Source: Sneathiella chinensis
GTDB lineage: Bacteria > Pseudomonadota > Alphaproteobacteria > Sneathiellales > Sneathiellaceae
Reading direction: 5' to 3'
NCBI RefSeq assembly: GCF_012720115.1
Contig: NZ_VNWN01000007.1
Span: forward strand, 186,001-250,000
Length of the DNA stretch: 64,000 bases
Position 1 is the stretch's first letter. Each line of letters starts with the position of its first letter. Below the pieces are notes generated by a model. It made no database searches. It saw nothing but the letters and a program-made list of their open reading frames with translations, and was not told the DNA's origin. A program made the translations under genes and the position numbers. Shown one piece after another: positions 18,444 to 33,898 of this stretch.

Positions 18444-18643
18444 CGATCATCCGCATTCCGGTTTTTCCCCACATTCCCCGCCAACAGGTTCAGAACCTGC
18501 AACAACCGGTCAAGCCGCCTGTCATTGGACCGGCTGGGCGTCAGGGAGGTGATCAGGGTTGAAAACAACACCAGAAGGGCCAGAATTTCAGCGCCTCGCG
18601 ATAGGGAATCTGTGAATTTTTGCAAGATAAATGTCTCGTCCAT
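18440..18643 (-). CDS. Small single-span membrane protein (holin-like candidate)
   Basis: 67 residues. A polar N-terminus (MDETFILQKFTDSL) precedes one hydrophobic segment, GAEILALLVLFSTLITSL, and a basic, leucine-rich tail with NDRRLDRLLQVLNLLAG. GAAGGAAAG lies before the ATG at 18643. It sits directly between an XhlA-like gene and the lipase gene. Holin or pinholin function is a guess from size and position. Confidence 0.6.
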   Translation of the reverse strand: MDETFILQKFTDSLSRGAEILALLVLFSTLITSLTPSRSNDRRLDRLLQVLNLLAGNVGKNRNADDR

Positions 18644-18653
18644 AGTCTTTCCT

Positions 18654-18872
18654 TCACGGGGTAAAAGGTCGGAGGGTCTGCCCGATCCAGGCGGCAAAGG
18701 TGGTTAACGCAATAACCAGCGTCCCTGTGATGCCGATAACCTTGACGGCACCGCGCCCCATACTGACCTGCAGGCTGAGCGATTTCACATCATCCCGCAG
18801 CTCGACCATATCCAGATGCAGGTTCTCGATCCGGGCCCGCATGGACCCGATTTCATGTTCCAGTTTTTCCAT
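18654..18872 (-). CDS. XhlA-like phage membrane protein
   Basis: 72 residues. An N-terminal coiled-coil of about 40 residues (MEKLEHEIGSMRARIENLHL, then VELRDDVKSLSLQV) is followed by one transmembrane helix, VIGITGTLVIALTTFAAWIG, and a short tail. This is the layout of haemolysin XhlA and similar phage lysis-module proteins. It lies 10 bp upstream of the second small membrane gene. Family assignment rests on layout rather than strong motif matches. Confidence 0.6.
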   Translation of the reverse strand: MEKLEHEIGSMRARIENLHLDMVELRDDVKSLSLQVSMGRGAVKVIGITGTLVIALTTFAAWIGQTLRPFTP

Positions 18873-18891
18873 GGGATTTTCCGTTTTCGTA

Positions 18892-19746
18892 TCACGCGAT
18901 CACATGAATGCCGATCCAGGTCTTGTCCGACCCCGGCAGGTTGATATTCACCCCCGCATCCTGAAGGACGCCCAACTCGAAATAGTCACCGGGGATCACC
19001 GACAGGACCGGCGAAACAAAGCTCTGTGTGGTGGCGCTGTCTCCCTTGACGCTCTGGCTCACCTGCCCCGCATAGCTTCCCCCGCCGCCCTTCTGAAGGC
19101 GCAGCAAGCGCCAGCCTGTGCCATTGTAATCCCAGGTGACCTGCCCACTCAGGATCACTTTCGAGACCCCCGCCGGAATGGTGATCCGGCTTTCCATGCC
19201 TGCTGTTCCGTCAAAAAAATCATCTGTGTCATGGGCAACGCTGTCCCAATCGATCGCCGTATAGACATATATCGGGGTCCCCGGATTTGACGGATTATCC
19301 GGCAGAAGCGGAATGGTTGTCGCGGCGGAACGGGACAGCAGCGCCCCCTGATATCCGCCGCCACCCGCCCCAGCGGACAGGCTGTCCGTCAGCGGCACAA
19401 TGGCGCTACCATCGCAATAGAGCAGCCGCGTCTCGCCCGTCAGTACCGGAACGGAAAGCCCCCCGGCGGTTCGGACACCAGCGGTCTGGCCACTGTCGTT
19501 ACTGACCATGAACGGGCGGGCAATGCTCGGCACCACAAAATCAAATGCCAATGCGGGCGTTCCCGTGATCCGGTGATGCCAGTTCTGGCGAAACTGGTGC
19601 GCGGTGACCACAACGCCCGCATCGGTCGCCACATGGTCCGGTATCTGGTCGCACAAGGCGCTTTCCAGAATGGCATCCGCGTCATTGGATGTGACATAGG
19701 CCGCCGACTGGTTTTCAGCAATTAGTGGCAAATCAAGTGCCCCCAT
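18892..19746 (-). CDS. Phage tail-fibre-like protein
   Basis: 284 residues. The N-terminus MGALDLPLIAENQSAAYVTS resembles DUF2793-type virion proteins (LP.I...Q....T.N). The C-terminal half (about 170-284) is a Gly/Thr-rich beta region with GVSKVILSGQVTWDYNGTGW, like a C1q/jelly-roll head. The start ATG comes directly after the stop of the tail hub gene (TAGATG), so the two are coupled. A receptor-binding or decoration role is inferred from position downstream of the hub. Confidence 0.6.
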   Translation of the reverse strand: MGALDLPLIAENQSAAYVTSNDADAILESALCDQIPDHVATDAGVVVTAHQFRQNWHHRITGTPALAFDFVVPSIARPFMVSNDSGQTAGVRTAGGLSVPVLTGETRLLYCDGSAIVPLTDSLSAGAGGGGYQGALLSRSAATTIPLLPDNPSNPGTPIYVYTAIDWDSVAHDTDDFFDGTAGMESRITIPAGVSKVILSGQVTWDYNGTGWRLLRLQKGGGGSYAGQVSQSVKGDSATTQSFVSPVLSVIPGDYFELGVLQDAGVNINLPGSDKTWIGIHVIA

Positions 19747-22700
19747 CTAAAACTCCCCCTTCACCGGATATCCCCGCCCGATGGCGTCCGACAGTTGAAA
19801 AACGGTCACCTCAAGCGTTGGAATTTCCTCAAGCGTTAAATTAAAATCCTCATTGAATTCAGCAAGTTGATACTCAAAGCTCAGGGTGTCCCTGACATAT
19901 TTTGACACCATTTCCGCCCCATACCTGAAGACGATCTCATACCGCTCGCTCCCTTCTGACAGCGGCACCGGTGCGGACAGGCCGCTCCCGGCGATGCGGC
20001 TTCGGCGGACCCATGACACCTGCAGGGTTCCGCCGGAGCGCCCCCCCGACAGATGCACCGGCGCGTATGGTTTCAGGTCTCGCCCGGTCAGCGACTGGAT
20101 CAGGGGCGGCGCCTGTTCCAGCAACTGCCCGGCTGCAACCGCCTTCCAATGCAGCGGCATCAACAACCGGGACAGGGGAACCTGACCCCGGCGGACGGTG
20201 TTGCTATCCAGCAGAAAGACCCGCTCCCCCGCCTGATGCCCACCGGCAAACGGGTCTGTCCCCCGCCGTCCCCGTAGCAGGGTGGACAGGGTGATCGTAC
20301 CGTCCCCGTTGTCCTGAACCGACTTGAACTGAACCAGTTCCTGCCCGACCAGCACCGGGTTGGTCCCGTTCAGGAAATCCGCCTCGGGGATATTCTCGAA
20401 CTGGTCGGCCCCATGCAGAAGACGAACGGTCAGACTGTTTTCCCAGTCCGTCCGGTACGGGGTTACTGGCTCTCCCAGCGCGTTCAGGGCAATGCCCCAT
20501 GCCACCTGCCGATCAACGGCGTCCTGAAATGTGAACCGCTCCCCGGTTTCCGATGAATACAGCCCGCCCCCGTTCCAGCGCGCCCCGTATCCCGCAGCGG
20601 CGAAATAGTACCGGCTTCCTGTCCCGGCCAACGCATCCTCATCCCGCAGCAGGGGCAGATCCAGAATGAACGGCTCCAGCATCTGCGGGCGGTGAATGGC
20701 ATAGGCGGGAACGCCCGCCCCGGCATCCGCATCCACCTGTTCCCGTCGCTCGGTTCGGGAAAAGGCGATGCCCTCCACCTCCATGGACAGGTCTCCCCCC
20801 AGATGGGTCTGCACCAGACGGCATTCCTGACGGGTACCCGCCCCCGTGATGGCAACCCGGTCCGACGGGTCCAGATACAGATACCGAAGCGGCAGCACGC
20901 CCCGTGCCTGTTCCCGTTCCGCCCATGCCTCCCGCAGCAGGTTTTGGCACAGGGCCTTGGCCTGCCCGCCGCCAAGGGCCATTGGCAGGTCCAGTGTGGT
21001 TTCGTTCCGGGCGAACATGGTCGCACGCGGTGTCTGGTGGCGGCGGGCGCTTTGCGCCCCGGCAAGGTAGCCCCCATCCGTCGCCATATAGGAAACGGTC
21101 AGGGATTCCGGCAATTCACTTTCCTGTATGCGGGTGCGCACCACCGGCTCCAGAAACGCCTCCTCGGGAATGGTCGCGGCAAGGCTGTCCGTTTCCGGCT
21201 TGAAACACAGCTTGTACCCGCATTCCACCAGATCATATCCGCCCGCACTCAGCACCGGTTTCAGGGCTTCCTGCAGGGACATGGGCCGGTTCAGGACATA
21301 TCCCCCGATACTGCCTGTCACCTGCCCCGTATCCAGATCGGACAGGGACAGCCCGGCCATCGCGCCCAGACGCTCGAACAGGGACTTGAAACCTGCCTTG
21401 CTGCCCTGCTGGCGGTTCAGATAGAGACGCCGCAATCCCTGCACCCGGCTCAGGATGATCGCACTATTTGAAACCGCATCATGGAAGAACGAGAACTGGC
21501 CGCCCGTGACACCGAAATTTCCCGCATCCTCGCGGGACCGTTCCGCCAGCGTTTCCGCGTCCAGTGACACCAGATACCGCCCATCCTGCAGGTATACCAG
21601 CGACACATCATCGTTCACATGAACTGGCGACACCCGCAACCCTTGCAGGTCATCACGGAAGGCGGTGATGGTCCCGCTCAGCAGGGACCACTTGAACAAT
21701 CGATAGTCATTCTGGAACACCAGCTCCGCCCGGTCCCGCAAATAGGCGACCAGACGGGTGACATTGTTTGTCTCGCCTGCGTTACCGGGGGTCAGGTCCG
21801 CGCCCGGCACGGTAAAATGCTCCGCCTCCATTGCCACTGCCGGGCCGCTTGGGGCCTGCCGGGTATCCAGACGGACGGCGACGATTTCAAGATCGGTGAA
21901 CCACGCCGTCGAATACCGGCCTGACATGCTGATCCAGGCCACCTCGTCCCGGTCGGTCACAGCGCCTGAACAATACCGGGTTGCCGTATCCACACGGCCG
22001 CACACCGCCCCGGTCTGGTCAAACACCACCACCTGCCCGCCCGACTGCGATCCGGCAACCTGAAACAGCGCCCCGGTGACAGACGACCGGACATCTGTAG
22101 AATGACTGACCGCCCCGATACCGGACGGCAGCGGAACCGTATCCATCCGGCGCATGGCAACCGTGTCGAACCTTGCAATGGTGCGCGTTCCGAACATGCC
22201 AAGGCCCGTCCCGATCCAGATCACGCCGTTTCTGTCCAGCGGCAGGGTATCCATGCTGACCGGCAGCCTTGGGAATCCCTCCTCGCTGACAGGGGCTTCC
22301 CCCAAAACGGACAGGCTGTCCGCATCAATCTTGCGAACCGTGTCCACCCCGCCGATCACCTCGTAGCTGAACAGGGACCGACGATAGGGATCGAAAGCCA
22401 GACTGCTGGCATTGACCGTCTGGTTGGCCCCCGTCTCAAACGGATAGGACCGCGCCCCGCCCGCAGACAGAAGCGCCTCGATATTCGGCAGGCGATTTCC
22501 ATAATCCGCCAACGGCAGCCGATCGAACACCACATAGCTCACCCCCCGGTAGGCAGGCACATTGCCAGCCCCAAGGTCTGCCTCCATGATACTGTCCGGC
22601 AGTTGCCCGTCCGTCCCCGAATAATACCGCACGCGAAGGCCGGGAATGCGGGTCTCGCCCGCGCCCTCCCGATCAAGGATCAGTTTACCGTCGGCCCACA

Positions 22701-23073
22701 GCTTCAAAAGGGAGGGCAATTCCCCTTCCGCAAAGGCAACGGCGAAGCTGGCAAAATATCGGTATCCGCCCGCAGCGTGCCCCCGTCCCGCGCCGCCTTT
22801 CCCGCCATCGCCTTGTCCGGCGGCCTCGGCCTCAACGGGTCCGGCCCAGATGATGTTTCCGCCCATCCGCATGGTTCCGAACAGCTTCGGGATCGGCATC
22901 CCGTAGGAAGACCCCGTCACCCGAAGGGTGTCCAGACGCGGGCCGCCCCGGTCATCCCCGGACGGAAAGAAGATGCGCCCAAGGGTTGATCCCAGTTGCC
23001 AGCCGGTGCCTGCGCCAATCCCCGTGATGCTGCCAAGACCAGCCCCGGCAAGGCTCAATGCCAATGTCGCCAT
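19747..23073 (-). CDS. Phage tail hub/host-specificity protein with propeller-like insert
   Basis: 1108 residues, in the position of gp15 of the Rhodobacter gene transfer agent. Residues 1-200 form a conserved tail-hub start (GSSYGMPIPKLFGTMRMGGN, then YFASFAVAFAEGELPSLLKL). Residues about 215-555 hold seven or so repeats that look like propeller blades, such as SLAFDPYRRSLFSYEVIGG, NGVIWIGTGLGMFGTRTIAR and VSLVYLQDGRYLVSLDAETL. From about 560 the phage-tail_3 region begins (LSLSDLDTGQVTGSIGGYVL). C-terminal fibronectin-like segments end the chain. It overlaps the NlpC gene at TGATG. It probably closes the tail tip and contacts the host. Confidence 0.78.
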   Translation of the reverse strand: MATLALSLAGAGLGSITGIGAGTGWQLGSTLGRIFFPSGDDRGGPRLDTLRVTGSSYGMPIPKLFGTMRMGGNIIWAGPVEAEAAGQGDGGKGGAGRGHAAGGYRYFASFAVAFAEGELPSLLKLWADGKLILDREGAGETRIPGLRVRYYSGTDGQLPDSIMEADLGAGNVPAYRGVSYVVFDRLPLADYGNRLPNIEALLSAGGARSYPFETGANQTVNASSLAFDPYRRSLFSYEVIGGVDTVRKIDADSLSVLGEAPVSEEGFPRLPVSMDTLPLDRNGVIWIGTGLGMFGTRTIARFDTVAMRRMDTVPLPSGIGAVSHSTDVRSSVTGALFQVAGSQSGGQVVVFDQTGAVCGRVDTATRYCSGAVTDRDEVAWISMSGRYSTAWFTDLEIVAVRLDTRQAPSGPAVAMEAEHFTVPGADLTPGNAGETNNVTRLVAYLRDRAELVFQNDYRLFKWSLLSGTITAFRDDLQGLRVSPVHVNDDVSLVYLQDGRYLVSLDAETLAERSREDAGNFGVTGGQFSFFHDAVSNSAIILSRVQGLRRLYLNRQQGSKAGFKSLFERLGAMAGLSLSDLDTGQVTGSIGGYVLNRPMSLQEALKPVLSAGGYDLVECGYKLCFKPETDSLAATIPEEAFLEPVVRTRIQESELPESLTVSYMATDGGYLAGAQSARRHQTPRATMFARNETTLDLPMALGGGQAKALCQNLLREAWAEREQARGVLPLRYLYLDPSDRVAITGAGTRQECRLVQTHLGGDLSMEVEGIAFSRTERREQVDADAGAGVPAYAIHRPQMLEPFILDLPLLRDEDALAGTGSRYYFAAAGYGARWNGGGLYSSETGERFTFQDAVDRQVAWGIALNALGEPVTPYRTDWENSLTVRLLHGADQFENIPEADFLNGTNPVLVGQELVQFKSVQDNGDGTITLSTLLRGRRGTDPFAGGHQAGERVFLLDSNTVRRGQVPLSRLLMPLHWKAVAAGQLLEQAPPLIQSLTGRDLKPYAPVHLSGGRSGGTLQVSWVRRSRIAGSGLSAPVPLSEGSERYEIVFRYGAEMVSKYVRDTLSFEYQLAEFNEDFNLTLEEIPTLEVTVFQLSDAIGRGYPVKGEF

Positions 23074-23486
23074 CAGGCCAGCCCTCCCAACCGGAACAGG
23101 GCAAAGGGCGCGGCGAACCGGTCAACCGGTTCCTCCACCACCTTGCGGCGGGCCGCATGGGCATGAATAACCGTCCACTGCCCGTCCTGACAGGCCAGAA
23201 CCCCCACATGAACGGGGGTTCCCTCATCCCGGAACAGGGCAATATCACCCGGTGCGGGGTCGTCAGTCCTGATCGGCACAAGGGTCGAAGTCAGGTGCCG
23301 CAGCAACGCACTGCCGTTCGGGCGGCGATCATAATCCACCGGTGCCGGAACGGGATGCCCCACACCGTCGGCCACCATCAGGCACAAGCCGACGCAATCC
23401 ACCCCCTGCCGGCTTCGTCCCTGATGACGCCATTTCACGCCCGTCCAGGAACGGGCCTTTTCCACGATGGCAAGCCCGTCAATCAT
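23073..23486 (-). CDS. NlpC/P60 peptidase of the tail tip
   Basis: 137 residues, matching gp14 of the Rhodobacter GTA. The catalytic cysteine is in SRQGVDCVGLCLMVAD. A histidine follows in GTPVHVGVLACQDG with a further IHAHAARR. NlpC/P60 peptidases cut the peptide stems of peptidoglycan; in tails they open the wall during DNA entry. The ATG at 23486 overlaps the DUF2163 stop by eight bases, and the stop overlaps the hub start. An upstream open extension in this frame lacks a ribosome site. Confidence 0.87.
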   Translation of the reverse strand: MIDGLAIVEKARSWTGVKWRHQGRSRQGVDCVGLCLMVADGVGHPVPAPVDYDRRPNGSALLRHLTSTLVPIRTDDPAPGDIALFRDEGTPVHVGVLACQDGQWTVIHAHAARRKVVEEPVDRFAAPFALFRLGGLA

Positions 23487-24324
23487 CCACCACCTCCAGC
23501 AGGGCGTCCGTCCCCGGTATATGGGGAAAACCCTGAAAATTAAGACTGTTTGAAAACCGGTTGCGACAGGTCTCGAACCGCTTGTCACATCCCGGTGTCA
23601 GAAGAACCTCGTCTCCCGGTGCCATCTCGAACGGCGCCCCGGTAAACAGGAAAATTTCACCGCTGGCCGGGTCCACGCCCTCAATTTCAACAGACCGGCC
23701 CGCATTCAGCCCACTTGTAAAGGTTACCAGCCCCCCGATCAGGCCGTTCCAATCCCCGGAGAAGATCTCAAGGCCAAGCCCCTGCCGGTCCCGGACCGAC
23801 AGAACCCTGTCCGCAACCTCCAGCGCGGCGACATTGACCCCGCATTTCCCATCGCCAAGATCGGCCCGGCATTCCGGGGTGTACAGGGCCCCGACCTGCC
23901 GCCGCAGGGCATCCGACAGGCCGCGTAGCTCCGCCGCAAACCGGCCGTCCTCCCAACGAACCTCGCCGATCCAGCCTTTGCGAAGGGGGATGGTGCCCTG
24001 TTCGGGGGCCTGCCAGTTGACCAGAAACAGGCGGATTTCCGCATGATCAAAAAGCCCGGCCTCCAGCGCCTCGGCGGGCAATCCATCAAGGGACAGGCTG
24101 CCCGACACCTCCATGTCATCAGCGGCAACCCCGGCGGATGTCTTCATGGCGGACCGGCTGTATCCCTGCCCGGCCTGATAGACCGCGCCCGCCACCGTCA
24201 TATCCCGGTCATGATCGGTAAAGCGCAAGGTCACACCATCGCGCCGGATCACCTCCCAACAGGTGGCAAGGGACGTCACTTCCCCTTCCATATGGGCTTT
24301 CAGGTCAAGGCTGATCTCCTTCAT
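23479..24324 (-). CDS. DUF2163 tail hub protein (GTA gp13-like)
   Basis: 281 residues. DUF2163/BR0599 features are SLATCWEVIRRDGVTLRFTD at the start and the C-terminal TPGCDKRFETCRNRFSNSLN. Four cysteines occur in two pairs, TPECRADLGDGKC and PGCDKRFETC; the homologous RcGTA hub is reported to hold an Fe-S cluster, so these are candidate ligands. It forms the baseplate hub between the distal tail ring and the tip. The ATG at 24324 overlaps the upstream stop (ATGA). Confidence 0.88.
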   Translation of the reverse strand: MKEISLDLKAHMEGEVTSLATCWEVIRRDGVTLRFTDHDRDMTVAGAVYQAGQGYSRSAMKTSAGVAADDMEVSGSLSLDGLPAEALEAGLFDHAEIRLFLVNWQAPEQGTIPLRKGWIGEVRWEDGRFAAELRGLSDALRRQVGALYTPECRADLGDGKCGVNVAALEVADRVLSVRDRQGLGLEIFSGDWNGLIGGLVTFTSGLNAGRSVEIEGVDPASGEIFLFTGAPFEMAPGDEVLLTPGCDKRFETCRNRFSNSLNFQGFPHIPGTDALLEVVDD

Positions 24325-24938
24325 ACCCGGATCTCCACCAACCGGACCCGCTGCCACTGATGAATGTCCGGGCCGGGAATGGCCGCTTCCATCAGGTCCG
24401 TATCAAAGCGAACCGGCACATCAAATTCGCAGCTAACAGCAATCTCGGCGCCCGGATCGGGGGCCGTCGTGAACTGAACCGTGCCTGTCTGGTGATCCAC
24501 GGTCCAGTTGCCAAATTGCGCCGTCCCGTCCAGATAAACCGTGGCCGTATCCTGTACGATCTTATGCAGGCGGCGCTCATATCCCGGGGCCAGTCCCTCC
24601 GCATCCTGATAGCGTTTGACGATCCCGAATGATTCGGTCGTCCCATCGCCGGTTCCAAGGACGCCCTGCTCCAGCTGGAAATCCGCAAAATCCTTGAGCC
24701 GAAAACCATAGGCCCGGCCCCGCCGCGCATGAAAGAAGCTCAGAACCGCCTCCCATTCCTGACCCCGGCTCGGGCTGATATCCACGGAATATTCCCGCCG
24801 GGCCTCGGCCCAGTTGATATTGCGCTGTTCATGACCGGACCCCAGTATCTGGACCGTGGTGGAAAACCGGGGGCCGCCCACCGCCCCATAGGAAATGCGG
24901 GTCGGAAACCTGATCTCGTGAAAAGTCATGATTGTCAT
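24321..24938 (-). CDS. DUF2460 distal tail protein (GTA gp12-like)
   Basis: 205 residues, the length of the TIGR02217/DUF2460 family. Typical segments are FHEIRFPTRISYGAVGGPRF at the N-terminus and FFHARRGRAYGFRLKDFADF in the middle. Such proteins form the ring at the end of the tail tube. The start overlaps the tape-measure stop by four bases and its own stop overlaps the DUF2163 start by four. Confidence 0.9.
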   Translation of the reverse strand: MTIMTFHEIRFPTRISYGAVGGPRFSTTVQILGSGHEQRNINWAEARREYSVDISPSRGQEWEAVLSFFHARRGRAYGFRLKDFADFQLEQGVLGTGDGTTESFGIVKRYQDAEGLAPGYERRLHKIVQDTATVYLDGTAQFGNWTVDHQTGTVQFTTAPDPGAEIAVSCEFDVPVRFDTDLMEAAIPGPDIHQWQRVRLVEIRV

Positions 24939-25627
24939 CCGTTTCTTCTGGTGGCGTGACGGGCGGCCTGAAAGGCCTCTGCCTGCAACTGCGCCTGTGA
25001 TTTCCTGAACCCCGCTACATCGGGCGTCGCGATATTGAACGTAATGGCGATATTGGGCGGGGCCGCTGCCATCTCCCGCTGCTGTTGCTGGGCCGGGGTC
25101 TCAACGGTTACCCGCTCCCCCCGGCTAAGGCGCATCCCCACAAGGTTCCGGTCCCGCCCGGCGGGCCCGCCAACGGTGAACTGACCGCCGCTGTTAAAGC
25201 CCGGAAAGAACCGGGTCAGCATATCCCCCGCCAGTCCGAACAATCCGCCGCCACCCGCCCCGCTGCCGCCTTGCCCGGCAAAATAGCGTGTCCCCCGTTT
25301 TAAAAATTCCGTTTCAAGACGGCCCAGCACCTGTTCCAGGCTGCGGCCCTTGACCAGCAACTGGTCCAGCGCCCCCAGAAACACCCCATCCAGCGTCCGG
25401 CCCACATCCCGCCCCTTGCCTGCAAGGGTGTCCAGCGCCTTCAGGCCGGGCGACACATCCACGGCCCCAAAGGCAATTTTCAATCCGCTGGCCGCCGCAT
25501 CCCCATAGGTGCTGAACGCCTTGCCAATCTGTTCCGCCGTCTCCCGAATACGGCCCAGCTCGGCCGCGGCACTCCCCAGCCCCTCGGCCTCAAACTCCAC
25601 CGTGATATCCGCCAGATCCGTTTCCAT
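24935..25627 (-). CDS. Short tail tape-measure protein (GTA gp11-like)
   Basis: 230 residues. The N-terminal half is helical (LGSAAAELGRIRETAEQIGK, LKALDTLAGKGRDVGRTLDG). A Gly-rich centre follows, then FNSGGQFTVGGPAGRDRNLV and GERVTVETPAQQQQ, motifs of tape-measure C-termini. It sets tail length and passes through the tube during ejection. Ordinary siphophage tape measures are several times longer; RcGTA gp11 has about this size. GGGGGG precedes the ATG. The first 38 bases overlap the end of the upstream chaperone frame. Confidence 0.82.
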   Translation of the reverse strand: METDLADITVEFEAEGLGSAAAELGRIRETAEQIGKAFSTYGDAAASGLKIAFGAVDVSPGLKALDTLAGKGRDVGRTLDGVFLGALDQLLVKGRSLEQVLGRLETEFLKRGTRYFAGQGGSGAGGGGLFGLAGDMLTRFFPGFNSGGQFTVGGPAGRDRNLVGMRLSRGERVTVETPAQQQQREMAAAPPNIAITFNIATPDVAGFRKSQAQLQAEAFQAARHATRRNG

Positions 25628-26000
25628 GATGCCCCCCGCCCGATACGGCCACCGGGCCGCTGTTAATGTCCTCGTTTTCCTGAACCTGCCGCCACAGCCG
25701 GATCAGCCTTGAAAGAACCTGCACCTCTTGCGGTGCGGGCTGCAGTCCGGTCAGGGCAACCAGATCGGACCTGATATCCGACGGCCCCGGCACCCCCTCG
25801 GCAAACCCGCTGCTGAATTCCAGAATCAGGCCAAACCACGCCCACAGATACCGGACGCAGGCGGGAATGCCGGTCTCGCCCTCTGACGGACCTTCCCGCC
25901 CCAATTGGCGCAAGACCGCCCCTTGGGTAATGCCATGAAGATTGACCCGCTTTTCCGCCTGCATTCTGGCTTTTGCCGCCGTCAGCAGGCGACGGGTCAT
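25590..26000 (-). CDS. Tail assembly chaperone, second frame (GT-type extension)
   Basis: 136 residues if started at the ATG at 26000, which overlaps the stop of the upstream frame (ATGA). Contents include LRQLGREGPSEGETGIPACV and LIRLWRQVQENEDINSGPV, then a Gly/His-rich tail. The frame is open upstream of the ATG through TACCGA to a T7 run, so it can also be entered by a -1 shift from the upstream frame. Position and size match gp10.1 of RcGTA and the T part of lambda GT. Whether it is made separately, as a fusion, or both cannot be seen. Confidence 0.72.
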   Translation of the reverse strand: MTRRLLTAAKARMQAEKRVNLHGITQGAVLRQLGREGPSEGETGIPACVRYLWAWFGLILEFSSGFAEGVPGPSDIRSDLVALTGLQPAPQEVQVLSRLIRLWRQVQENEDINSGPVAVSGGGHHGNGSGGYHGGV

Positions 26001-26398
26001 TCGGTAAAAAAACGGCTGCGATCCTCAACAAATCGCGCCACCTGTTCACGGACCCAGACATGCTCCGAATACAGCGCCTCTGCCGCCCGCACCGAAAAGG
26101 GCACCGCCTCGCCGCGCAGGATCACATTGTCCCAGCCCATTGTCAGGGCAGCCAACCGGCGGATCAGGTTTTTCTCAAGCTCTGCAGCGCTCAAATTTTC
26201 CGCTCCGCTGGCCAGTTGTGCGTCGATCTGTTGGCGCAGGATGGCCCGAAAGGTCTCAGAATCCTGTCCCTTCAGTCGGATTTGAACCGGCAACACCGCC
26301 TCCGTCACCGGATGGCGCAAGGCCAGAACGGCCCCCGCCTCGGCACGGGCGGTGAGGTCCAGACCCGCAAGATCAACGATCTCCAACTCGCTTTTCAT
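25997..26398 (-). CDS. Tail assembly chaperone, first frame (G-type)
   Basis: 133 residues between tail tube and tape measure, the place of lambda G and RcGTA gp10. It is mainly helical: FRAILRQQIDAQLASGAENL, AELEKNLIRRLAALTMGW, VRAAEALYSEHVWVREQV. AGGAGG lies before the ATG at 26398. It ends ...R-F-F-T-E-stop, with the two Phe codons forming a T7 run three codons before the stop. Such chaperones coat the tape measure before tube assembly. Confidence 0.78.
   Translation of the reverse strand: MKSELEIVDLAGLDLTARAEAGAVLALRHPVTEAVLPVQIRLKGQDSETFRAILRQQIDAQLASGAENLSAAELEKNLIRRLAALTMGWDNVILRGEAVPFSVRAAEALYSEHVWVREQVARFVEDRSRFFTE
26006..26012 (-). promoter_or_regulatory. Candidate -1 ribosomal frameshift site (T TTT TTT)
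   Basis: Read in the chaperone frame on the minus strand this is CGT TTT TTT ACC GAA TGA, so the last base of CGT and two Phe codons make the heptamer T TTT TTT. A -1 slip gives TAC CGA ATG ACC and runs straight into the second chaperone frame, with no stop between. G/GT frameshifts are conserved in long-tailed phages. No downstream stimulator was modelled. Confidence 0.6.
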
Positions 26399-26407
26399 CT
26401 CCCCCTC

Positions 26408-27313
26408 CTAGGCTGGTATTCTTGTGATCTGGATATTGCTGCCCAACACCCCGTCATGCAGGGCGATAAAGGGCAGGGTCAGGATTGCGCCCCGCCCGCC
26501 TTTCACCGGAATGTCCGCCCCGCTGTAAAGGATATTGGGGAGCAGGATTTCATACCCGCCACCTTCCCCGTTCAGGGTAAGGGCGAGGCGGCTGGGCACC
26601 TTGCCCAGGAACTTGTCGATCAGGGCGCGGTTCTCGAACCAGACCGTCATTTCGCCGCTGACACGGGACCGGCCATAAGTCATCGCCCCGGCAACATCAC
26701 TGCCCAGAACATGCGCGGCCTCAAACCCGTTCTCGATCTTGAGGTCCAGCCCCGCCACCTCGGCCAGCGGGGCACCGCCCTCGCTCACGCTGCCACCAAA
26801 ACCATCCATGGGCGCGGCGGAAAGGGTCGGCCCCGGCGATGGGTCCAGCGCCGCCGCCGCCGGCATCATGTCCCGCCCCATGATACCGAACCGGCCACTG
26901 ACCAGACTGTCCGGTTGCACGGTCAGGGCCATCTGGTTCACGACGCATCCGGTAAACCGCTGATATTGTTGGATATCGGGAAAGCCCCGCTCGATCGTGA
27001 AGCTTTTCTCCTCGCTGCCGGTCTTCAGCACATTCCCCGACCAGCTTGCGCAAAACGCCCCTTCCAGAAGGCTGTCGAAGCTGCCGAAGGACAGTTCAAA
27101 ATCAATGTCCCCCGCCACCGATTTCCGGCCATGATTGAAATGGCCGATCTGACGATCACTGCGGATTTCATCGCTTTCCACCGTCTCTTTTGACAGGGTC
27201 AGGTCACACCCCGTATGACGAAGCGGAGTGATCTCTGGGCTGGGCGGCGTCGTGCCTGCCACATCTTCCGCGACGATGCCCAACAGGTGCCGGGACTGGC
27301 TTGCAAATATCAT
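26408..27313 (-). CDS. Tail tube (major tail) protein
   Basis: 301 residues. Resembles Phage_tube_2-type tube proteins: TPLRHTGCDLTLSKETVESD, GDIDFELSFGSFDSLLEGAF, and the paired later domain starting SVSEGGAPLAEVAGLDLKIE. It would form the hexameric rings of the tail tube. GAGGAG lies before the ATG. The gene sits between the tail terminator and the chaperones, as expected for a siphovirus-type tail. Confidence 0.85.
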   Translation of the reverse strand: MIFASQSRHLLGIVAEDVAGTTPPSPEITPLRHTGCDLTLSKETVESDEIRSDRQIGHFNHGRKSVAGDIDFELSFGSFDSLLEGAFCASWSGNVLKTGSEEKSFTIERGFPDIQQYQRFTGCVVNQMALTVQPDSLVSGRFGIMGRDMMPAAAALDPSPGPTLSAAPMDGFGGSVSEGGAPLAEVAGLDLKIENGFEAAHVLGSDVAGAMTYGRSRVSGEMTVWFENRALIDKFLGKVPSRLALTLNGEGGGYEILLPNILYSGADIPVKGGRGAILTLPFIALHDGVLGSNIQITRIPA

Positions 27314-27326
27314 GGTCTGCTGCTCC

Positions 27327-27716
27327 TCAGAAAAAACTGCGCCAGGCGATTGTCACCGGCAGCCGAACAAATTTCAGGCCGCCTGTATCCCGGCCAATCC
27401 GGTGTGTGCGAAGGGTGGTGTCCTGCCCCTCGAATGTCAGGATCAGTCCCGCCCCGAAATGGGCACTGATCTGATCGACCCGGCGAAGGGCCGCATCCAG
27501 ATCGACGTCCTGCACATGAATGCGGTATCCGCCCTCGCGCTGTTCCGGCTGGCTTATGCCCAGAAACACGGCGCGGGACCGACCCGGTAGGAATTCCGTG
27601 ATCACACAGGGCTGCCCCGGTGCCAGATGGGCGGGGCGGCCATGATGAACCACCGCATCAAGGGTGAGCCCTCGCAAATGCTGGTCCAGTGCGGCCTGAA
27701 CTTTTCGGTATCCCAT
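27327..27716 (-). CDS. Tail terminator-like protein (DUF4128 type)
   Basis: 129 residues. KVQAALDQHLRGLTLDA at the start and YRIHVQDVDLDAALRRVDQI in the middle match small tail-terminator proteins of the DUF4128/gpU kind, which cap the tube after polymerisation. It lies directly upstream of the tube gene, 13 bp apart, which supports the role. Sequence evidence alone is moderate. Confidence 0.7.
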   Translation of the reverse strand: MGYRKVQAALDQHLRGLTLDAVVHHGRPAHLAPGQPCVITEFLPGRSRAVFLGISQPEQREGGYRIHVQDVDLDAALRRVDQISAHFGAGLILTFEGQDTTLRTHRIGRDTGGLKFVRLPVTIAWRSFF

Positions 27717-27730
27717 AAACGCCCCCCCTT

Positions 27731-28087
27731 CTATTGATAGCGAACATCAAACAAGACGCCCGCCCCAAGGTCCGCCCCCTCAACCGCCAGAAGGGTCCGG
27801 CGCACTCCGTCCACCACAAGGTCGTCATGAACACGCGGCACCACCGCCGAACTTTCCAGAAGCCCCCTTGTCGCCGCCGGATAAAGCTCCGGGCCGCTTT
27901 CGGTCCCGCGTGCGCCGCCCGTCCCGGTCATCAGCAACCGGGCCGGAAACTGGTCTTCCCCGCTGACCGGCGGCTCCCCCGGAAGGGTATCTGTCGGGGT
28001 CTTGCGGATAATCTGGACCGGCACGACCACATCACCCAGCCGGTCCAGAACCCCTTTGACCGACTGCCGGATTTCCTCTTTGTTCAT
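27731..28087 (-). CDS. Head-closure/stopper-type phage protein
   Basis: 118 residues starting at the ATG at 28087, which follows GAGGGTGAG. MNKEEIRQSVKGVLDRLGD begins a short helix, followed by beta-rich VVVPVQIIRKTPTDTLPGE and ending LAVEGADLGAGVLFDVRYQ. Small size and location between the head-completion and tail-terminator genes suggest the head-tail stopper. Not recognised by motif. Confidence 0.6.
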   Translation of the reverse strand: MNKEEIRQSVKGVLDRLGDVVVPVQIIRKTPTDTLPGEPPVSGEDQFPARLLMTGTGGARGTESGPELYPAATRGLLESSAVVPRVHDDLVVDGVRRTLLAVEGADLGAGVLFDVRYQ

Positions 28088-28112
28088 CTCACCCTCGCCT
28101 TGTTGTTTCCTG

Positions 28113-28580
28113 TCAGCCGCGCCGCAATTCCCGCCGTGCCGGTCTGGCCCCGATCTGCTGTAACAGCCGGAAGACAAAGCTGGGTTGGCGGCCTGCACCT
28201 GAATAGACAATCTCGACCGGACCGATTTTCTGGCGGCTGACCTCGCGCCCGCCCATCAGGTCCGTGCCGCCCGTTACAAACCGGGCGGCCAGTTCCAGAA
28301 CGGCCGTTCGCAAGGCATGAGGCAATTCCGCCAGCAGGCGGCCATCCGCATCCCGTGCCCCGGTCCGGGGCCATTTCAGGCCTTGCCGGTCCGATCGGGG
28401 CCGACCGGGATACTCGAAACTGTCCACATACAGGCTTGCCCGGATCAGGGCCTGTTCCCGGACCGGGTCCGCCGCCGCATTCCAGGAATGATGACCCAAG
28501 GCCGCAAAATGGCTGCTGGCATCCGCCAGCCCCACATAACTGTCGGCTCCCTCAATCCCGCTTCCCGTTTCCAAGATCAC
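28113..28580 (-). CDS. DnaT-like head-tail connector protein
   Basis: 155 residues. Phage proteins labelled DnaT-like share this pattern: ETGSGIEGADSYVGLADA, REQALIRASLYVDS, RQGLKWPRTGARDADGRLL and KIGPVEIVYSGAGRQPS. Despite the family name they act as head-completion adaptors on the portal in tailed phages with P22-like coats. It follows the coat gene by 73 bp. Confidence 0.78.
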   Translation of the reverse strand: MILETGSGIEGADSYVGLADASSHFAALGHHSWNAAADPVREQALIRASLYVDSFEYPGRPRSDRQGLKWPRTGARDADGRLLAELPHALRTAVLELAARFVTGGTDLMGGREVSRQKIGPVEIVYSGAGRQPSFVFRLLQQIGARPARRELRRG

Positions 28581-28653
28581 GCTTGCTCTCCCTGCTGCTG
28601 AAGATAGTTACCCGGTAAAAGGAAGGGGGACGTCGCCCCCTCCCCCTGTCGGA

Positions 28654-29790
28654 TCAGGGTTTCCCGGCCAGACGTACCGCGAATTCTGGACGCACCAGCT
28701 TGACCCCCCACAGGATGTCAAACTCCCACACCACCTGTTTGTACTGACGGCTGACCTCCAACCGCAGGGACAGGCCGGTCACCGGGTCGGTCATCGACAT
28801 GATCTGGTTGCCCAGCCCCATATCCTGCGTACTGTGCGCCAGCGGACGGTTGGCAAAGGCCAGCGCATCCCGGTTGAACACCAGATTGACCGTGTGGGAC
28901 GGGACAAAACTGACATTCTCCGCCCCGGCCGGATCGGTCACAAGCGGCGGATCGATGGTCAGGGTGGACTGGTCCAGCGCCAGTTCAGTGGCGGCGCGAA
29001 CCACATATTGCTGGTCGCTCCCCTCAATGGTCAGCACATCGCCAACCGCTGGCCGGGCGGCTAGCCCCGTCAGGACCAGCGTGTTGCCGCTGCTGCCCTC
29101 ATCCACCACAACGGCGGCCCCGGCGGCCCCGGTCACATGGGTCATCACATGGTCATCGCTGAACCAGTTGATGCCGTATTTCCGGCCAATCTCGCCGTCA
29201 ATCTTGACCTCACTGGTTCCCGCCTTGTCCGCATCCGCGAACGCCGACAGGTCCAGCGCACTGGCCTCCGCATCGAAATTCAGGACCCCGTAGCGGTTTT
29301 CCTTCGGCGCCCGCTGCTGAAGCAACAGTTTGCGGGCGTCGATGGCATCCCCGGACCCGCCGCTGAACGGCACCTGTGCCGGGTCCCCCACCAGCCCGTA
29401 AACCCCCGTATATTCTGCATGGATCGACTGGTTCACCGCATTGGCAAGGGCGCGAATGGCCGATCCGGCCTGCATGGGCAGGAAATTGTCGCGGCCTTCC
29501 ACCTCCATCATTTCCTTGTCGGTCAGGTGAAACCCCGCCTTTTTCCAGTTCTTCAGTTCAATCTGAACCTTTCTGATGGCCACATCCTCGGGCACGGGCG
29601 GGGTGATATCCGGGGTGACGTCGGTGGCGCTCAGTTCGGCAGGCACCGGAACGTCGATGGTATCCCCCTTCTCGGCGGCGATGGCGCTGTAATCCCCGTT
29701 GACAAGGCGGGGCATGATGGCCTGTTCCCGCAGGGTCATCAAGCCGCGCGCAAGGATTTTCGGCATCACGGCCGATACGTTATTGGTCAT
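28654..29790 (-). CDS. Major capsid protein, P22 coat-like
   Basis: 378 residues. The start KILARGLMTLREQAIMPRLV followed by AEKGDTIDVPVPAELSATDV is the hallmark of the P22-type coat family (HK97 fold). LVFNRDALAFANRPLAHS and SLRLEVSRQYKQVVWEFDIL lie near the C-terminus as in that family. An internal beta-rich stretch (about 235-300) may be the inserted I domain. GGAGAG precedes the ATG. No prohead protease is present; a scaffold gene lies upstream, as expected for this capsid type. Confidence 0.9.
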   Translation of the reverse strand: MTNNVSAVMPKILARGLMTLREQAIMPRLVNGDYSAIAAEKGDTIDVPVPAELSATDVTPDITPPVPEDVAIRKVQIELKNWKKAGFHLTDKEMMEVEGRDNFLPMQAGSAIRALANAVNQSIHAEYTGVYGLVGDPAQVPFSGGSGDAIDARKLLLQQRAPKENRYGVLNFDAEASALDLSAFADADKAGTSEVKIDGEIGRKYGINWFSDDHVMTHVTGAAGAAVVVDEGSSGNTLVLTGLAARPAVGDVLTIEGSDQQYVVRAATELALDQSTLTIDPPLVTDPAGAENVSFVPSHTVNLVFNRDALAFANRPLAHSTQDMGLGNQIMSMTDPVTGLSLRLEVSRQYKQVVWEFDILWGVKLVRPEFAVRLAGKP

Positions 29791-29839
29791 GTTTTTTCTC
29801 TCCAGTGGGTAATGATAAAATCTTGACGAACAACAACTG

Positions 29840-30463
29840 CTAGAAGGACACGGTCACCTTTCCGGCGGCGATTTCCTCGATCCGGTTGTTAAGCTGGCTC
29901 TGGTCATGGCCGTTGACCCGGCCTGCCTGCAGGGCGCCCCCCGCCGGGTTCATGCCGCCGCCCCGTGTCTCGTCCTGCTCAAACGCACGGTTAAACAGGG
30001 GCGAGACCTTCATCTCCTCGACCAGGTCCTCCAGACTGAACGGGGCGCCGTTGTCGCAAACCCGCGGCTCCCCATCCGGCCCCAGAACCCGCAGAACCCG
30101 TTTTCCCCCCTCTTCGGCGATGGACACCACCTCGCGGATATGGGGCAGCAACAATTCCACACTGCCCCGCGCCGCCGACACGGCCCGCGCCGCCAGACCG
30201 TCAACCCGGTGCCTGTCCGTCTGCCGGGTCACATCGGCAAGTGTTGCGGTTCGCGCGGCCAATTCCTGCTCCATGGCGGACAGACGGGATCGCAGGCTTT
30301 CCTTCTCCTGCTCCAGATGGGCGATGGCTTCCTCTCTGCCGCCCGACAGGCGCCCGGCCAATTCCTCGTTCAGGGCAAAACCGTCATCCGCCTCGCGGTA
30401 CAGGCTGCGAAACTCCTCTGGCGCCGTGTCCAAAGCCTTCATTTTTTCGGGAAATTCAAACAT
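29840..30463 (-). CDS. Capsid scaffolding protein
   Basis: 207 residues, strongly acidic and helical. A coiled-coil spans about 45-85 (HLEQEKESLRSRLSAMEQEL). The C-terminal part contains SLEDLVEEMKVSPLFNRAF, common in phage scaffold proteins upstream of P22-like coats. It would direct coat assembly and then leave the prohead. The gene is separated from the portal gene by an 84-bp gap that holds a terminator-like hairpin. Confidence 0.75.
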   Translation of the reverse strand: MFEFPEKMKALDTAPEEFRSLYREADDGFALNEELAGRLSGGREEAIAHLEQEKESLRSRLSAMEQELAARTATLADVTRQTDRHRVDGLAARAVSAARGSVELLLPHIREVVSIAEEGGKRVLRVLGPDGEPRVCDNGAPFSLEDLVEEMKVSPLFNRAFEQDETRGGGMNPAGGALQAGRVNGHDQSQLNNRIEEIAAGKVTVSF

Positions 30464-30478
30464 TCAGACCTCTTCCAT

Positions 30479-30501
30479 AAAAAAAGGCCCCTTTCGGGAC
30501 C
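30479..30501 (-). terminator. Weak intrinsic terminator between portal and scaffold genes
   Basis: On the minus strand GGTCCC-GAAA-GGGGCC forms a six-pair stem with one T-G wobble and a GAAA tetraloop, followed by seven T. On the plus strand the wobble becomes a C-A mismatch and there is no T tract, so the signal is directional. A leaky stop between packaging and capsid genes would set expression ratios. Confidence 0.55.
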
Positions 30502-30547
30502 CTGTGAAAAACCGTTTTTGACCTTGTAACCAACCGCTCGTACTGCC

Positions 30548-31855
30548 TCAGCCGGACAGCGATCCTGCATCATTGAAACTGCTGGCGGACTTGAAAATCC
30601 CGCGCACGGCCAGTTCCGCCTGCAGGGTTTCCGGGGTGATCTCCCCCATCTGGCGAAGCGACAGAAGATGCCCCACGTCCGTCCCCCCGGCACCGCCCTT
30701 CAAGGGGTCCGCCGAGACCGACAACCGGCCCACGGCCTCCAGTCCTGACCAGCTTCCAAACAGGGCCAGCATCAGGTTCAAGCTGTCCTCCAACTCCTGT
30801 GCCATGCCGATCAGCGGGGACAGCGCATCCCGCGCATCCAGTGCCCGTCCGGTCGCGGTTTCCCCGATGGCCCCGGCCTCGAACTGAAGCCCGAACATCT
30901 GCATGGCCTTTTCCAGATGGGCCAACTCCCGCGCCCCGGCCTCCAATGCCGCACCGGTGCTTTCCACATAATAATATTTCCCGTCCGTATCGGACGTGGT
31001 CAGAACCTTGTTCGGCCCCACCTCGATGGGGCCATCCAGTTCCGGGTCGTATCCGGCGGCGGCCAGTATGGGAAAGGACGCCACGTTCAGCGCGTTTCGC
31101 TGGTCAGAGCGGATCTGGTAATGCTCCAGATTAAGATAAGCCAGATCCTCCAGCGGGGGGGCGGCCTGCATGAAACCGGTCCGGTTGGTATACAGGGTGA
31201 CCAGCGGAATGCGTCCAAGGCTGTTCTCCCCCTCTTCCCGGCACTGCCATCGCCCCTTTTCATCCTGCCGCCATACCGTCCAGTGATCGGGGGCCAGCAC
31301 CCGGATTTGCGGGACAACCCGCTCCCGGTTTCCGTGATATTCCCGCCCGCCCTCACGAATGCGGACCTGCACCAGTTCGTGATTGCTGCCGTTCAGGTGC
31401 CAGCGGGCCGCGATCAGGTTTTCCGCGGGCACATGCACCGCATAGGGGCGACCGACCCCGCCGCCGCCAGTGGGAAAATCCACCAGAACATGGCTCAGTC
31501 CGCACACAAGGGCATCCTCGAACCAGGCCTTGGCAAAGACATTCAGTCCCCGCCCCATCAGATCGATATTGCGGAACTGGTTCTGGATCCCGTCCGGCAT
31601 GTCACTGCTGGCCCGGATCGGTTCGGCAAAGACCCGGCCCACCAGCTTGCGGACAGTCTGCCCGAAATAGTTTCTAAGCACGGTGCGGTTCGCCCGCTCC
31701 CGATATACGGTTTCATTTTCCGCCGGATGACGGGGCAGGAACCGGGTTCCCATGGCCTGCATGACTGCGGTGCCGCCCAGAAGGCTTTTCGGCAAGGCCC
31801 ACCGGCGCGCCATATCCTCAAAGGCCGGGGACGGGATTGAAGGATCATCTGTCAT
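30548..31855 (-). CDS. Phage portal protein (DUF4055 type)
   Basis: 435 residues. The N-terminal region PSPAFEDMARRWALPKSLLG and YRERANRTVLRNYFGQTVRK plus DALVCGLSHVLVDFPTGGGG and YVESTGAALEAGARELAHLE fit the DUF4055 portal family found with P22-like coats. The portal dodecamer gates DNA entry at one capsid vertex. The ATG overlaps the terminase stop by four bases. Confidence 0.85.
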   Translation of the reverse strand: MTDDPSIPSPAFEDMARRWALPKSLLGGTAVMQAMGTRFLPRHPAENETVYRERANRTVLRNYFGQTVRKLVGRVFAEPIRASSDMPDGIQNQFRNIDLMGRGLNVFAKAWFEDALVCGLSHVLVDFPTGGGGVGRPYAVHVPAENLIAARWHLNGSNHELVQVRIREGGREYHGNRERVVPQIRVLAPDHWTVWRQDEKGRWQCREEGENSLGRIPLVTLYTNRTGFMQAAPPLEDLAYLNLEHYQIRSDQRNALNVASFPILAAAGYDPELDGPIEVGPNKVLTTSDTDGKYYYVESTGAALEAGARELAHLEKAMQMFGLQFEAGAIGETATGRALDARDALSPLIGMAQELEDSLNLMLALFGSWSGLEAVGRLSVSADPLKGGAGGTDVGHLLSLRQMGEITPETLQAELAVRGIFKSASSFNDAGSLSG

Positions 31856-33204
31856 GTATACATATCCTTTTGCATGGTCTGTCGTGTCTCCTGCAAGGCG
31901 TTGAACGCCTCCACCACCGCATCAACCTGATCGTCATGGCGCCCCCCGGGGAAATTCTCCAACTCCCGAAGGAAGGCCTCGTTCCACAGCCCGTTTACCA
32001 GCACCACGTTGCCAGCCTCCACCTGCGCAGAAAAAGGCGCGGCCCGGGTCACCTTGTCCCCGCTGACCGGACGGGCCCGAACCCGGTATCCCGCCAGCAG
32101 GGCCACAAACCGTTTTGCCTGCGCCTTGCCGGCCTGCCCCGGGTCCTGCGGCAATGCGATCGCAACCCGCGCTCCATCCTGCGTGGCCAGCGCCTGTATG
32201 GTGCCTTCCACCCCGCCGGGACTGGCCCGCAGCCGTTCCACATGCTCGATCACATACCCGCCGCTTTCGGTCCGGCCAACGCGGGCCCCAACGGTCCAGT
32301 CGCCCTGCCCGCCTTCGCTGGCGGCAAGGTCCCATCCCCTTGCGGATCGCTGAATGTCTGCCGGGGGCCGATCCACAATCCGAAACCAGCCGCGCCGGAA
32401 ATATTCCCCCGCTGCCGGGCGGATTTTCCAGTTTCCCAGCAGCAACCGTTCCCGCTCCACCCGGTCAAGGGCGGCCAGATTGGCCCGGTATCCCCGGTCC
32501 CGTTCCAGCAGGATTCTGTTATCCTCAATATTCGCGGCAATGAAAGTCACCGACTTCGGGACCGCGCCGGGAAATCGCTGGGTCAGTTCCGCCTCCCCAT
32601 CGGCCCAGACCAGTGCATCCTCGTCCCGCACGAACCAGCGGACCACCCCGGAACGATCCTTGATCGGATATCCGGTTTGCGGGTCGATCCACCAGTCGAT
32701 AAACCGGGCGACCCAGCTATCCGCATCCGGGTTACAGGTGGCCCGCACATAGGGGCGAACCCCGCAGGTGGAGCGGTTCCGGCTCAACATGTAGAAAAAC
32801 TGGCTTTCCGTGAAATGGGTCAGTTCATCAAAGCCGATGCAGGTAATCTCTGTCCCCTGCCAGTCATATCGGTTCTTTTCATGTTCCATATATCCGAAAC
32901 TGATGGCCGCCCCGGACGCAAAGCGCCACGACAGGTCCGTTTCCCGTGCCGCCGCGCCGGTCTTCCCATATAATTCCCGCGAGGCGTCCCACAACCCGCC
33001 TTCATTACGGATCTGTTTGCCTGTCCGGCGAAACAGAACCGACCGGAAGCCGCCAATTCCCACATGCCGAAGCGGCTCCAGCAGCAGCGCAAAGCTCTTG
33101 CCCCCGCCGGCCGCCCCGCCATAGATGGCAATGTCCGCCGCACTGGACAGAAAAGCCTCCTGCGGGCCGGGTTGCGGCCTAATCTCTGCCATTGCTCGGG
33201 ACAT
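31852..33204 (-). CDS. Terminase large subunit (packaging ATPase/nuclease)
   Basis: About 450 residues. The Walker A-type loop is AIYGGAAGGGKSFALLL, and Walker B is CIGFDELTHF with FMYMLSRN-like coupling downstream (FFYMLSRNRSTCG). The nuclease domain shows RGWDLAASEGGQGDW and a late GGRHDDQVDAVVEAFNAL, the acidic residues of the RNase H fold. It cuts and pumps DNA into proheads. Start options are ATG 33204 and ATG 33192; both overlap the small subunit gene. Confidence 0.93.
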   Translation of the reverse strand: MSRAMAEIRPQPGPQEAFLSSAADIAIYGGAAGGGKSFALLLEPLRHVGIGGFRSVLFRRTGKQIRNEGGLWDASRELYGKTGAAARETDLSWRFASGAAISFGYMEHEKNRYDWQGTEITCIGFDELTHFTESQFFYMLSRNRSTCGVRPYVRATCNPDADSWVARFIDWWIDPQTGYPIKDRSGVVRWFVRDEDALVWADGEAELTQRFPGAVPKSVTFIAANIEDNRILLERDRGYRANLAALDRVERERLLLGNWKIRPAAGEYFRRGWFRIVDRPPADIQRSARGWDLAASEGGQGDWTVGARVGRTESGGYVIEHVERLRASPGGVEGTIQALATQDGARVAIALPQDPGQAGKAQAKRFVALLAGYRVRARPVSGDKVTRAAPFSAQVEAGNVVLVNGLWNEAFLRELENFPGGRHDDQVDAVVEAFNALQETRQTMQKDMYT

Positions 33205-33595
33205 AGACCCGTGTCCTGAAAATGGATGTCCGCTCGCCGCTCTCCCGGCCGGAACGCTGCGGCGCATATCGCTGCGGCGCGAACTGCTCCATCAACCATT
33301 TACGGGTATCGATCCTCAGTTTCGAACGGGCAACGGCTTCCCGGCCGTCCGGTGTCTCGGCGTCGTCGCTATCCGCAATGGTGACAATTTCCCCGGCGAA
33401 ATAATCCGCAAGGAACAGGCGGACCCGTTCATCCTCTTTCTTGTTGAACACCGTCCCCGCAAGCGAAAGCAGCTCCTGAACCCGTGATTTCTTGCCAAGT
33501 TCCTTCAGCAGTGAAAAATCGGAATTGCTGCCGAAAATGCGGTTCTGGATTGCCGATCGCAAGGCCTCCAGCGCGTTTTTTCTGGACAATACCAT
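33179..33595 (-). CDS. Terminase small subunit-like protein
   Basis: 138 residues from the ATG at 33595, which follows AAGGGGG. LEALRSAIQNRIFGSNSDFS and FLADYFAGEIVTIADSDDAE, then KLRIDTRKWLMEQFAPQRYA, follow the pattern of phage small terminase subunits. It would recognise the packaging site and recruit the large subunit. It is the first gene of the long structural transcript. Confidence 0.72.
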   Translation of the reverse strand: MVLSRKNALEALRSAIQNRIFGSNSDFSLLKELGKKSRVQELLSLAGTVFNKKEDERVRLFLADYFAGEIVTIADSDDAETPDGREAVARSKLRIDTRKWLMEQFAPQRYAPQRSGRESGERTSIFRTRVYVPSNGRD

Positions 33596-33831: not shown

Positions 33832-33898
33832 CCAATTCCTGATCATGAGAAATATCTTATCAAACTTGCCCCCGAACTGTCAACGCTATTTTTCTATT

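Follow-up and report, generated by a model that had tools for sequence, protein, structure and literature searches.

How does the second of two overlapping frames in a phage tail gene cluster come to be translated? The question is raised by the minus strand of the window, the whole stretch of 64,000 nts of Sneathiella chinensis DNA that was analysed, where the frames termed ORF1 and ORF2 form an overlapping pair between a tail tube gene and a tape measure gene (order tube, ORF1, ORF2, tape measure). The features concerned are these.

26408..27313, minus strand: tail tube protein, the upstream neighbour of ORF1 (PF18906 Phage_tube_2, E 2.6e-51)
26398..25997, minus strand: ORF1, a G-like tail assembly chaperone of 133 aa
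26012-26006, minus strand: slippery heptamer T_TTT_TTT, the predicted −1 shift site
26000..25590, minus strand: ORF2, a T-like extension in the −1 frame, 136 aa from its ATG and 138 aa from the slip
24935..25627, minus strand: short tape measure protein of 230 aa, the downstream neighbour (PHROG tape measure families, best E 3.9e-9)

The 3′ end of ORF1 reads GAT CGC AGC CGT TTT TTT ACC GAA TGA. The preliminary description of this DNA had pointed to the heptamer within it, to a path into ORF2 in the −1 frame free of stops, to a fusion of about 270 residues and to an overlap of the two frames as ATGA. Each of these is correct: the heptamer T_TTT_TTT is at 26012-26006 of the minus strand (a strand that had not been stated), the ATGA is at 26000-25997 of the same strand, and translation of ORF1 to F131, followed after a −1 slip by TAC CGA ATG, yields a predicted fusion of 269 aa with no internal stop.

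Programmed −1 ribosomal frameshifting of the lambda G/GT kind is, on the comparative sequence evidence, very probably the answer. The majority of ribosomes would end at the ORF1 stop codon and so give the G-like chaperone. A minority would pause at a stem-loop six nts downstream of the heptamer, with a Shine Dalgarno-like sequence nine nts upstream perhaps adding to the pausing, and these paused ribosomes would slip one base back on T_TTT_TTT to enter ORF2. Their product would be a 269-residue G-T fusion having its first 131 residues in common with the short form. By analogy with lambda, coating of the tape measure protein would fall to the short form, and the scarcer long form would bring in the tube protein. 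That ribosomes slip here, how often they do so and what each product is for are what we infer; the earlier proposal of a G-GT type fusion is supported by comparison (a natural fusion, heptamers in 33 of 36 relatives, and profile matches), with the fusion protein itself being putative.

That the pair encodes tail assembly chaperones had also been proposed, and is supported. ORF1 has a profile match to phrog_313 ‘Tail assembly chaperone’ (E 7.7e-11), and a match to the same family at E <= 0.1 is found in 19 of 19 aligned ORF1 homologues. Leave-one-out HMMs built from relatives pick out ORF1 (E 3e-47) and ORF2 (E 2.7e-23) of the window, and no further frame at E <= 10 among its 925 open frames. 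Neither of the two has a direct Pfam match, and Pfam and NCBIfam searches with ORF1 relatives gave weak single-member matches only. PF23812 Phage_TAC_18 scores above its cut-off in 5 of 7 tested proteins of ORF2 relatives (the fusion of locus L018 and the ORF2 of L015 are not above it) and at E <= 0.1 in 4 of the 14 members of ORF2 alignment A3; it has no match to ORF2 of the window. The N half (18-129) of the 271-aa phrog_8233 is matched by one ORF1 relative and its C half (147-261) by three ORF2 relatives, all of these matches being weak (E 0.001-0.006).

The predicted model of ORF1 (pLDDT 92.5) has 24 matches at E <= 0.001 among viral models, nine of which are named tape-measure or tail assembly chaperones, the remaining ones being mostly unnamed. 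Short and long versions are present among the viral models, with Sansa at 161 and 310 aa and Scapp at 129 and 236 aa, and the Scapp pair matches the ORF1 model at E 0.012 and 0.006. The best PDB row for the ORF1 model, the top of 11 chains with Z of at least 2 among 300, is the HK97 tail assembly chaperone, 2ob9_B, a weak match (Z 4.9, rmsd 6.8, 97 aligned). Foldseek against the PDB gave no match at E <= 0.001 for the ORF1 model or the ORF2 model, and PDB sequence searches gave nothing convincing. The best VIA rows for the ORF2 model (Z 6.3 and below) were small helical domains with unrelated names and were discarded.

The T run by itself says little, since T7 is frequent across the 3.55-Mb genome (322 places on the forward and 315 on the reverse strand, overlapping places included). 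A canonical W-type X_XXY_YYZ heptamer is present in the last 10 codons of 5 of the 388 gene-like ORFs in 464 kb of the same genome, and for none of these 5 is the −1 frame open for at least 80 codons beyond the stop (the sample includes 14 kb in duplicate, from an overlap of the window with one fetched stretch, and the greedy gene set omits ORF1 itself). When the last 16 codons of ORF1 were resampled synonymously, a canonical heptamer arose in 4% of 2000 trials.

The relatives were assembled as 61 loci, of which 36 are distinct once exact duplicates are dropped; with 3 phage loci, 39 were compared. The ORF2 family follows the end of ORF1 in any frame, being in −1 in 36 loci, in +1 in two (L022 and L025) and in frame 0, as an in-frame fusion, in one (L018). 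Near the end of ORF1 a canonical heptamer is found in 33 of the 36 −1 loci versus 4.25 expected from synonymous resampling by each locus’s own codon usage (canonical W-type, last 16 codons, −1 frame open), though many of the loci are closely related and their counts are therefore non-independent trials. The heptamers are T_TTT_TTG/T/C, A_AAT_TTT/C and G_GGA_AAC/G; the preliminary description had looked for a run of seven T at the same codon, and what is conserved is a canonical heptamer but not always seven T. Sites of the form A_AAC_TTC, A_AAC_TTT and A_AAG_TTC were not counted as canonical, and L020, L062 and L063 have a canonical G_GGA_AAN one codon upstream of non-canonical A_AAN-type sites. 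In L041, L050 and L052 the site is still TTT TTG although TTT provides 4-12% of Phe codons there (25-95 Phe codons per locus) and TTG 5-10% of Leu codons.

Homologues keeping both frames and lacking any slippery run had been named at the outset as what would speak against the proposal. Three such loci exist, L007 (CGT TTT ATT), L019 (AAT TTC CTG) and L027 (GTG GAT TTT), none of which has a canonical heptamer, and they tell against a strict heptamer rule, set beside the 33 of 36 that keep one. On these alignments the slippery site and the frame are conserved beyond chance, and the site appears to be maintained by selection. Single-protein ORF1 scans of genome contigs and of viral contigs found no relatives; a narrower ORF1 alignment found 14 loci in genome contigs, 12 of which coincide with stretches taken from genomes of the same genus, and 14 in viral contigs, and a class-wide profile search was positive in 6 of 385 genomes, that of the window included.

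Two elements flanking the heptamer may act as stimulators.

25943..25999, minus strand: stem-loop of 15 bp in two blocks, starting 6 nts after the heptamer, a probable stimulator
26022..26027, minus strand: Shine Dalgarno-like TGAGGA, 9 nts upstream of the heptamer, a possible stimulator

Folding of the downstream RNA, the check that had been suggested, does give a predicted stem-loop 6 nts past the heptamer. A 60-nt segment at the site folds at −31.3 kcal/mol (z −5.24), a z not reached in any of 402 background segments of the cluster (minimum −3.31) and an energy reached in one of the 402 (20006-20065). The 81-nt fold of the site has −32.9 kcal/mol (z −3.59), with none of 200 shuffles as low. 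For 38 sites, L018 being left out, the mean z is −1.28 versus −0.17 in 950 background segments (p 1e-6, uncorrected for kinship). The stem-loop is not universal: z is −2 or lower in 13 of the 38 sites versus 5.5% of the background.

The duplex of TGAGGA with the anti-Shine Dalgarno sequence has −5.6 kcal/mol. A stretch of −5 kcal/mol or better at the same 9-nt gap is found in 22 of the 39 loci, and in 18 of those 22 it is TGGAGGA, at −9.3. The stretch also codes for a conserved V-E-D, so that selection on the RNA is not separable from selection on the protein. Stimulation of −1 shifts by Shine Dalgarno-like sequences is described in a passage of PMC4066793.

Could ORF2 instead be a separate protein, made with no frameshift by translational coupling, in which ribosomes terminate at TGA and restart at the overlapping ATG? 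Separate initiation had been allowed for in the preliminary description, and at the ATG of the window, which overlaps the ORF1 stop, coupled re-initiation is possible. The same applies to L006, L015, L016 and L030, where an ATG has the same position (a TTG overlaps the stop in L007 and L026). As the general mechanism, independent initiation fails, since 20 of the 36 −1 loci have no ATG, GTG or TTG in the −1 frame from −45 to +30 of the ORF1 stop. Even in the window no Shine Dalgarno-like stretch is visible by eye in the 20 nts preceding the ATG, the nearest ending 21 nts upstream of it, and the UG of ORF2’s AUG is predicted to be paired in the base of the stem-loop. Coupling moreover leaves both the excess of heptamers and the in-frame fusion unexplained, and is unlikely to be how ORF2 is expressed.

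Programmed frameshifting, the preferred reading, would have taken more than one direction in the family. A profile of the −1 ORF2s matches L022 (E 1.2e-21) and L025 (E 2.7e-15), both in the +1 frame, and has no match in the other two frames of either. A scan for the clade of these two loci gave 38 viral loci, 30 of them distinct (L122-L159), and in 25 of the 30 ORF2 is in +1. Each of these 25 has, at the same place, a TTT whose next base is C or T, the codon after TTT being CGA in 13, CGC in 8, TGT in 3 and CAA in 1; per 1000 codons in these viral loci there are 2.0 CGA, 3.6 CGC and 23.0 CGT (12,727 codons of long ATG frames, from which spurious frames were not weeded out). In the remaining 5 of the 30, L148, L152, L156, L157 and L159, the ORF2 match is in −1, and for L156 and L157, both of which run off their contigs, it is weak (E 7e-5). 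The ORF1s of L148 (ACA AAT TTT ACG, −1) and L158 (ACT AAC TTT CGA, +1) are 75% identical. From the frames only, we infer the slip directions in these phage relatives. The +1 site of influenza A PA-X is given as UCC_UUU_CGU in a passage of PMC3498833, and the phage chaperone +1 loci resemble it with UUU_CGA in 13 of 25 and UUU_CGC in 8 of 25, the genes being unrelated and the direction of the phage shift being read from the frames.

In L018 (G023, 1855-1880) a run of ten T puts both domains in one frame as a natural fusion, with the ORF2 profile at E 7.3e-10, and a −1 slip there would meet TGA at once. This inverted layout we take to be like that of dnaX. The T10 may be an artefact of assembly at a homopolymer, and no further inverted fusions turned up when viral contigs were scanned with the L018 protein. 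The family, in which one codon pair occurs in −1, +1 and fused arrangements, offers a natural series for testing how frameshift direction evolves.

The T10 of L018 and the T7 of the window are homopolymers on which RNA polymerase might add or drop a U, transcriptional slippage then yielding both frames; a passage of PMC4066793 discusses A7/U7 runs as possibly prone to this, and in L018 it is a real option. For the window it is most improbable: the non-homopolymer sites A_AAT_TTC, G_GGA_AAC and G_GGA_AAG need the same −1 frame, and the stem-loop and Shine Dalgarno-like elements suit ribosomal slippage. That a single gene has been split by an indel, through decay or sequencing error, can practically be dismissed, for though both ORFs are in one frame in L018, the two-frame layout recurs in 36 distinct loci and the +1 layout in L022, L025 and 25 further distinct viral loci, and seven other genes of the cluster look purified in three close pairs.

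The −1 ribosomal frameshift of the window is thus well supported by comparison of sequences and ordinary in kind, its trick being known from many phages. Xu, Hendrix and Duda reportedly described a conserved tail-gene frameshift in 2004. In L063, a relative from a Mannheimia phage, the site is G_GGA_AAG, which we take to be lambda’s own heptamer. The likeness of the window to lambda G/GT is one of layout and consists of two overlapping ORFs ahead of the tape measure gene, a −1 slip close to the 3′ end of the first ORF and a fusion sharing its N-terminus with the short form (PMC5009743). Unlike lambda, the window has T_TTT_TTT and a strong predicted stem-loop, in a head-tail cluster that appears to be chromosomally fixed. 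In E. coli, U_UUU_UUU is less shift-prone than A_AAA_AAG according to a passage of PMC5009743, a point against the frameshift. Phage SPP1 of Bacillus subtilis likewise has a putative −1 shift, on UUUUUUC, giving the longer chaperone of the gp17.5/gp17.5* pair (a passage of PMC6316719), a likeness of description. The phrog_313/Phage_TAC_18 (PF23812) chaperone pairs of phages such as Acinetobacter Effie and Rhizobium P106B have an ORF1 homologous by sequence and an ORF2 homologous by profile, in the same frame relation. In ten fetched phage regions ORF1 is annotated as hypothetical or uncharacterised, and no joined CDS is flagged. In the record of phage 9g (L065 43359-44170), a locus excluded from all counts, the −1 frame carrying ORF2 stays open past the ORF1 stop; the chaperone frameshift of this phage was published as −2 (a passage of PMC4276943).

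The value of the frameshift lies in the natural series of slip directions and in what it tells about the cluster to which the pair belongs.

17769..34522, minus strand: head-tail cluster of ~17 kb (about 17.8-34.5 kb; with its edges, 17382-35287 of the window)
Cluster content, minus strand, first part: Lipase_3, 72-aa and 284-aa proteins (unscanned for families), Rcc01698-like, NlpC/P60, hub, DUF2460
Cluster content, minus strand, second part: tape measure protein, ORF2, ORF1, tube, terminator, two small unscanned genes, P22-like coat
Cluster content, minus strand, third part: one unscanned gene, DUF4055 portal, Terminase_6, Sf6-type TerS, one gene without a Pfam match
34730..35287, plus strand: HTH gene at the cluster edge, a candidate regulator (PF01381 HTH_3, E 1.1e-4)

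The HTH_3 match has 22.6 bits, slightly below the cut-off of 23, and tblastn found the gene in 4 of 11 relatives’ stretches. Among the cluster proteins scanned (several cluster ORFs were outside the scan) there is no integrase or replication gene. No direct repeats join the cluster ends, and the four repeat families are all inside the cluster. Its tail end (DUF2460, hub, NlpC/P60 and Rcc01698-type) is RcGTA-like and presumably resembles the RcGTA gene order. Its head genes are not of RcGTA type: unlike RcGTA, it has a P22-like coat, a DUF4055 portal and an Sf6-type TerS. The HK97-type portal family PF04860, which we take to be that of the RcGTA portal, has a match in a single one of the 24 genus genomes, which is not G000, and the Caulobacter control was positive.

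Passages of PMC9662315 define gene transfer agents by tailed-phage-derived particle genes that are endogenized, mostly vertically inherited and co-diversifying with the host, and by particles that package host DNA at random, are too small for their own genome and pass DNA on. Particle genes derived from a tailed phage are what the cluster contains, and it is a candidate gene transfer agent as judged from its genes. Like RcGTA (alphaproteobacterial type I) and BaGTA (type II), as presented in PMC9662315, it is a head-tail cluster at a chromosomal flank that appears to be fixed. For Sneathiellales, Table 3 of Kogay et al. 2019 gives 2 genomes, 1 prophage and 0 RcGTA-like clusters (PMC6821227), and among the papers searched no other one mentions both gene transfer agents and Sneathiella.

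A frameshift in tail chaperones would serve little purpose if no tail were built, so its conservation in a cluster with a shared chromosomal flank and no integrase among the proteins scanned is independent evidence of continued particle making. In a joint reading, which is a serious possibility falling a little short of probable, the cluster would be an independent Sneathiella gene transfer agent, with a P22-like head and a short RcGTA-like tail, that was in its chromosomal place before the radiation of the genus and has stayed there, and the conserved frameshift signal would reflect tail assembly still under selection. The family would be an evolvable frameshift module at one Asn-Phe codon pair, shifting −1 or +1 in relatives that are 75% identical, and in L018 the logic would be inverted, with the fusion as default and a −1 slip on T10 leading to an immediate stop and the short form. 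A conserved frameshift, a shared flank and the lack of an integrase among the proteins scanned suggest that Alphaproteobacteria may have a third lineage of gene transfer agents.

The gene order of the cluster is kept in the 10 Sneathiella stretches compared, with tblastn missing the lipase in 3, ORF2 in 2 and the HTH gene in 6 of the 10. A PALP/AlaX-like flank is shared by all 9 Sneathiella for which the fetched stretch is long enough to include it; G009 has its PALP gene ~12 kb from the cluster, and the contig of G013 breaks off within the cluster. Genes 7308-12486, which form the other flank, were found in 6 of 10 Sneathiella stretches and not found in G003, G014, G018 and G021. G024, from another genus, shares neither flank. 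Of 24 genus genomes 19 have the coat gene. Three of the other five are 56-66% complete, and the two near-complete coat-less genomes, G001 and G005, have cluster remnants at the same place, G005 weakly (31-37% identity). The shortened cluster of G001 (L120, G001:C12, about 15.1-19.0 kb) keeps matches to lipase, to the 72-aa and 284-aa proteins, to TerL and TerS and to the 33899 gene; the 40 kb fetched there gave none for any gene lying between TerL and the 284-aa protein.

The coat gene of G009 (L090, G009:C11:138689-139818) is in two overlapping frames, split at residue 288, and homopolymers around the junction are all shorter than 5; error, decay or recoding may be the cause. Protein distances of cluster and host (7 cluster and 7 host genes, 10 genomes) are correlated, with a Mantel r of 0.893 (p 0.0002) on which one close trio weighs heavily. 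When seven cluster genes are compared across three close pairs, dN is about 0.01-0.08 versus a dS of about 0.13-0.92.
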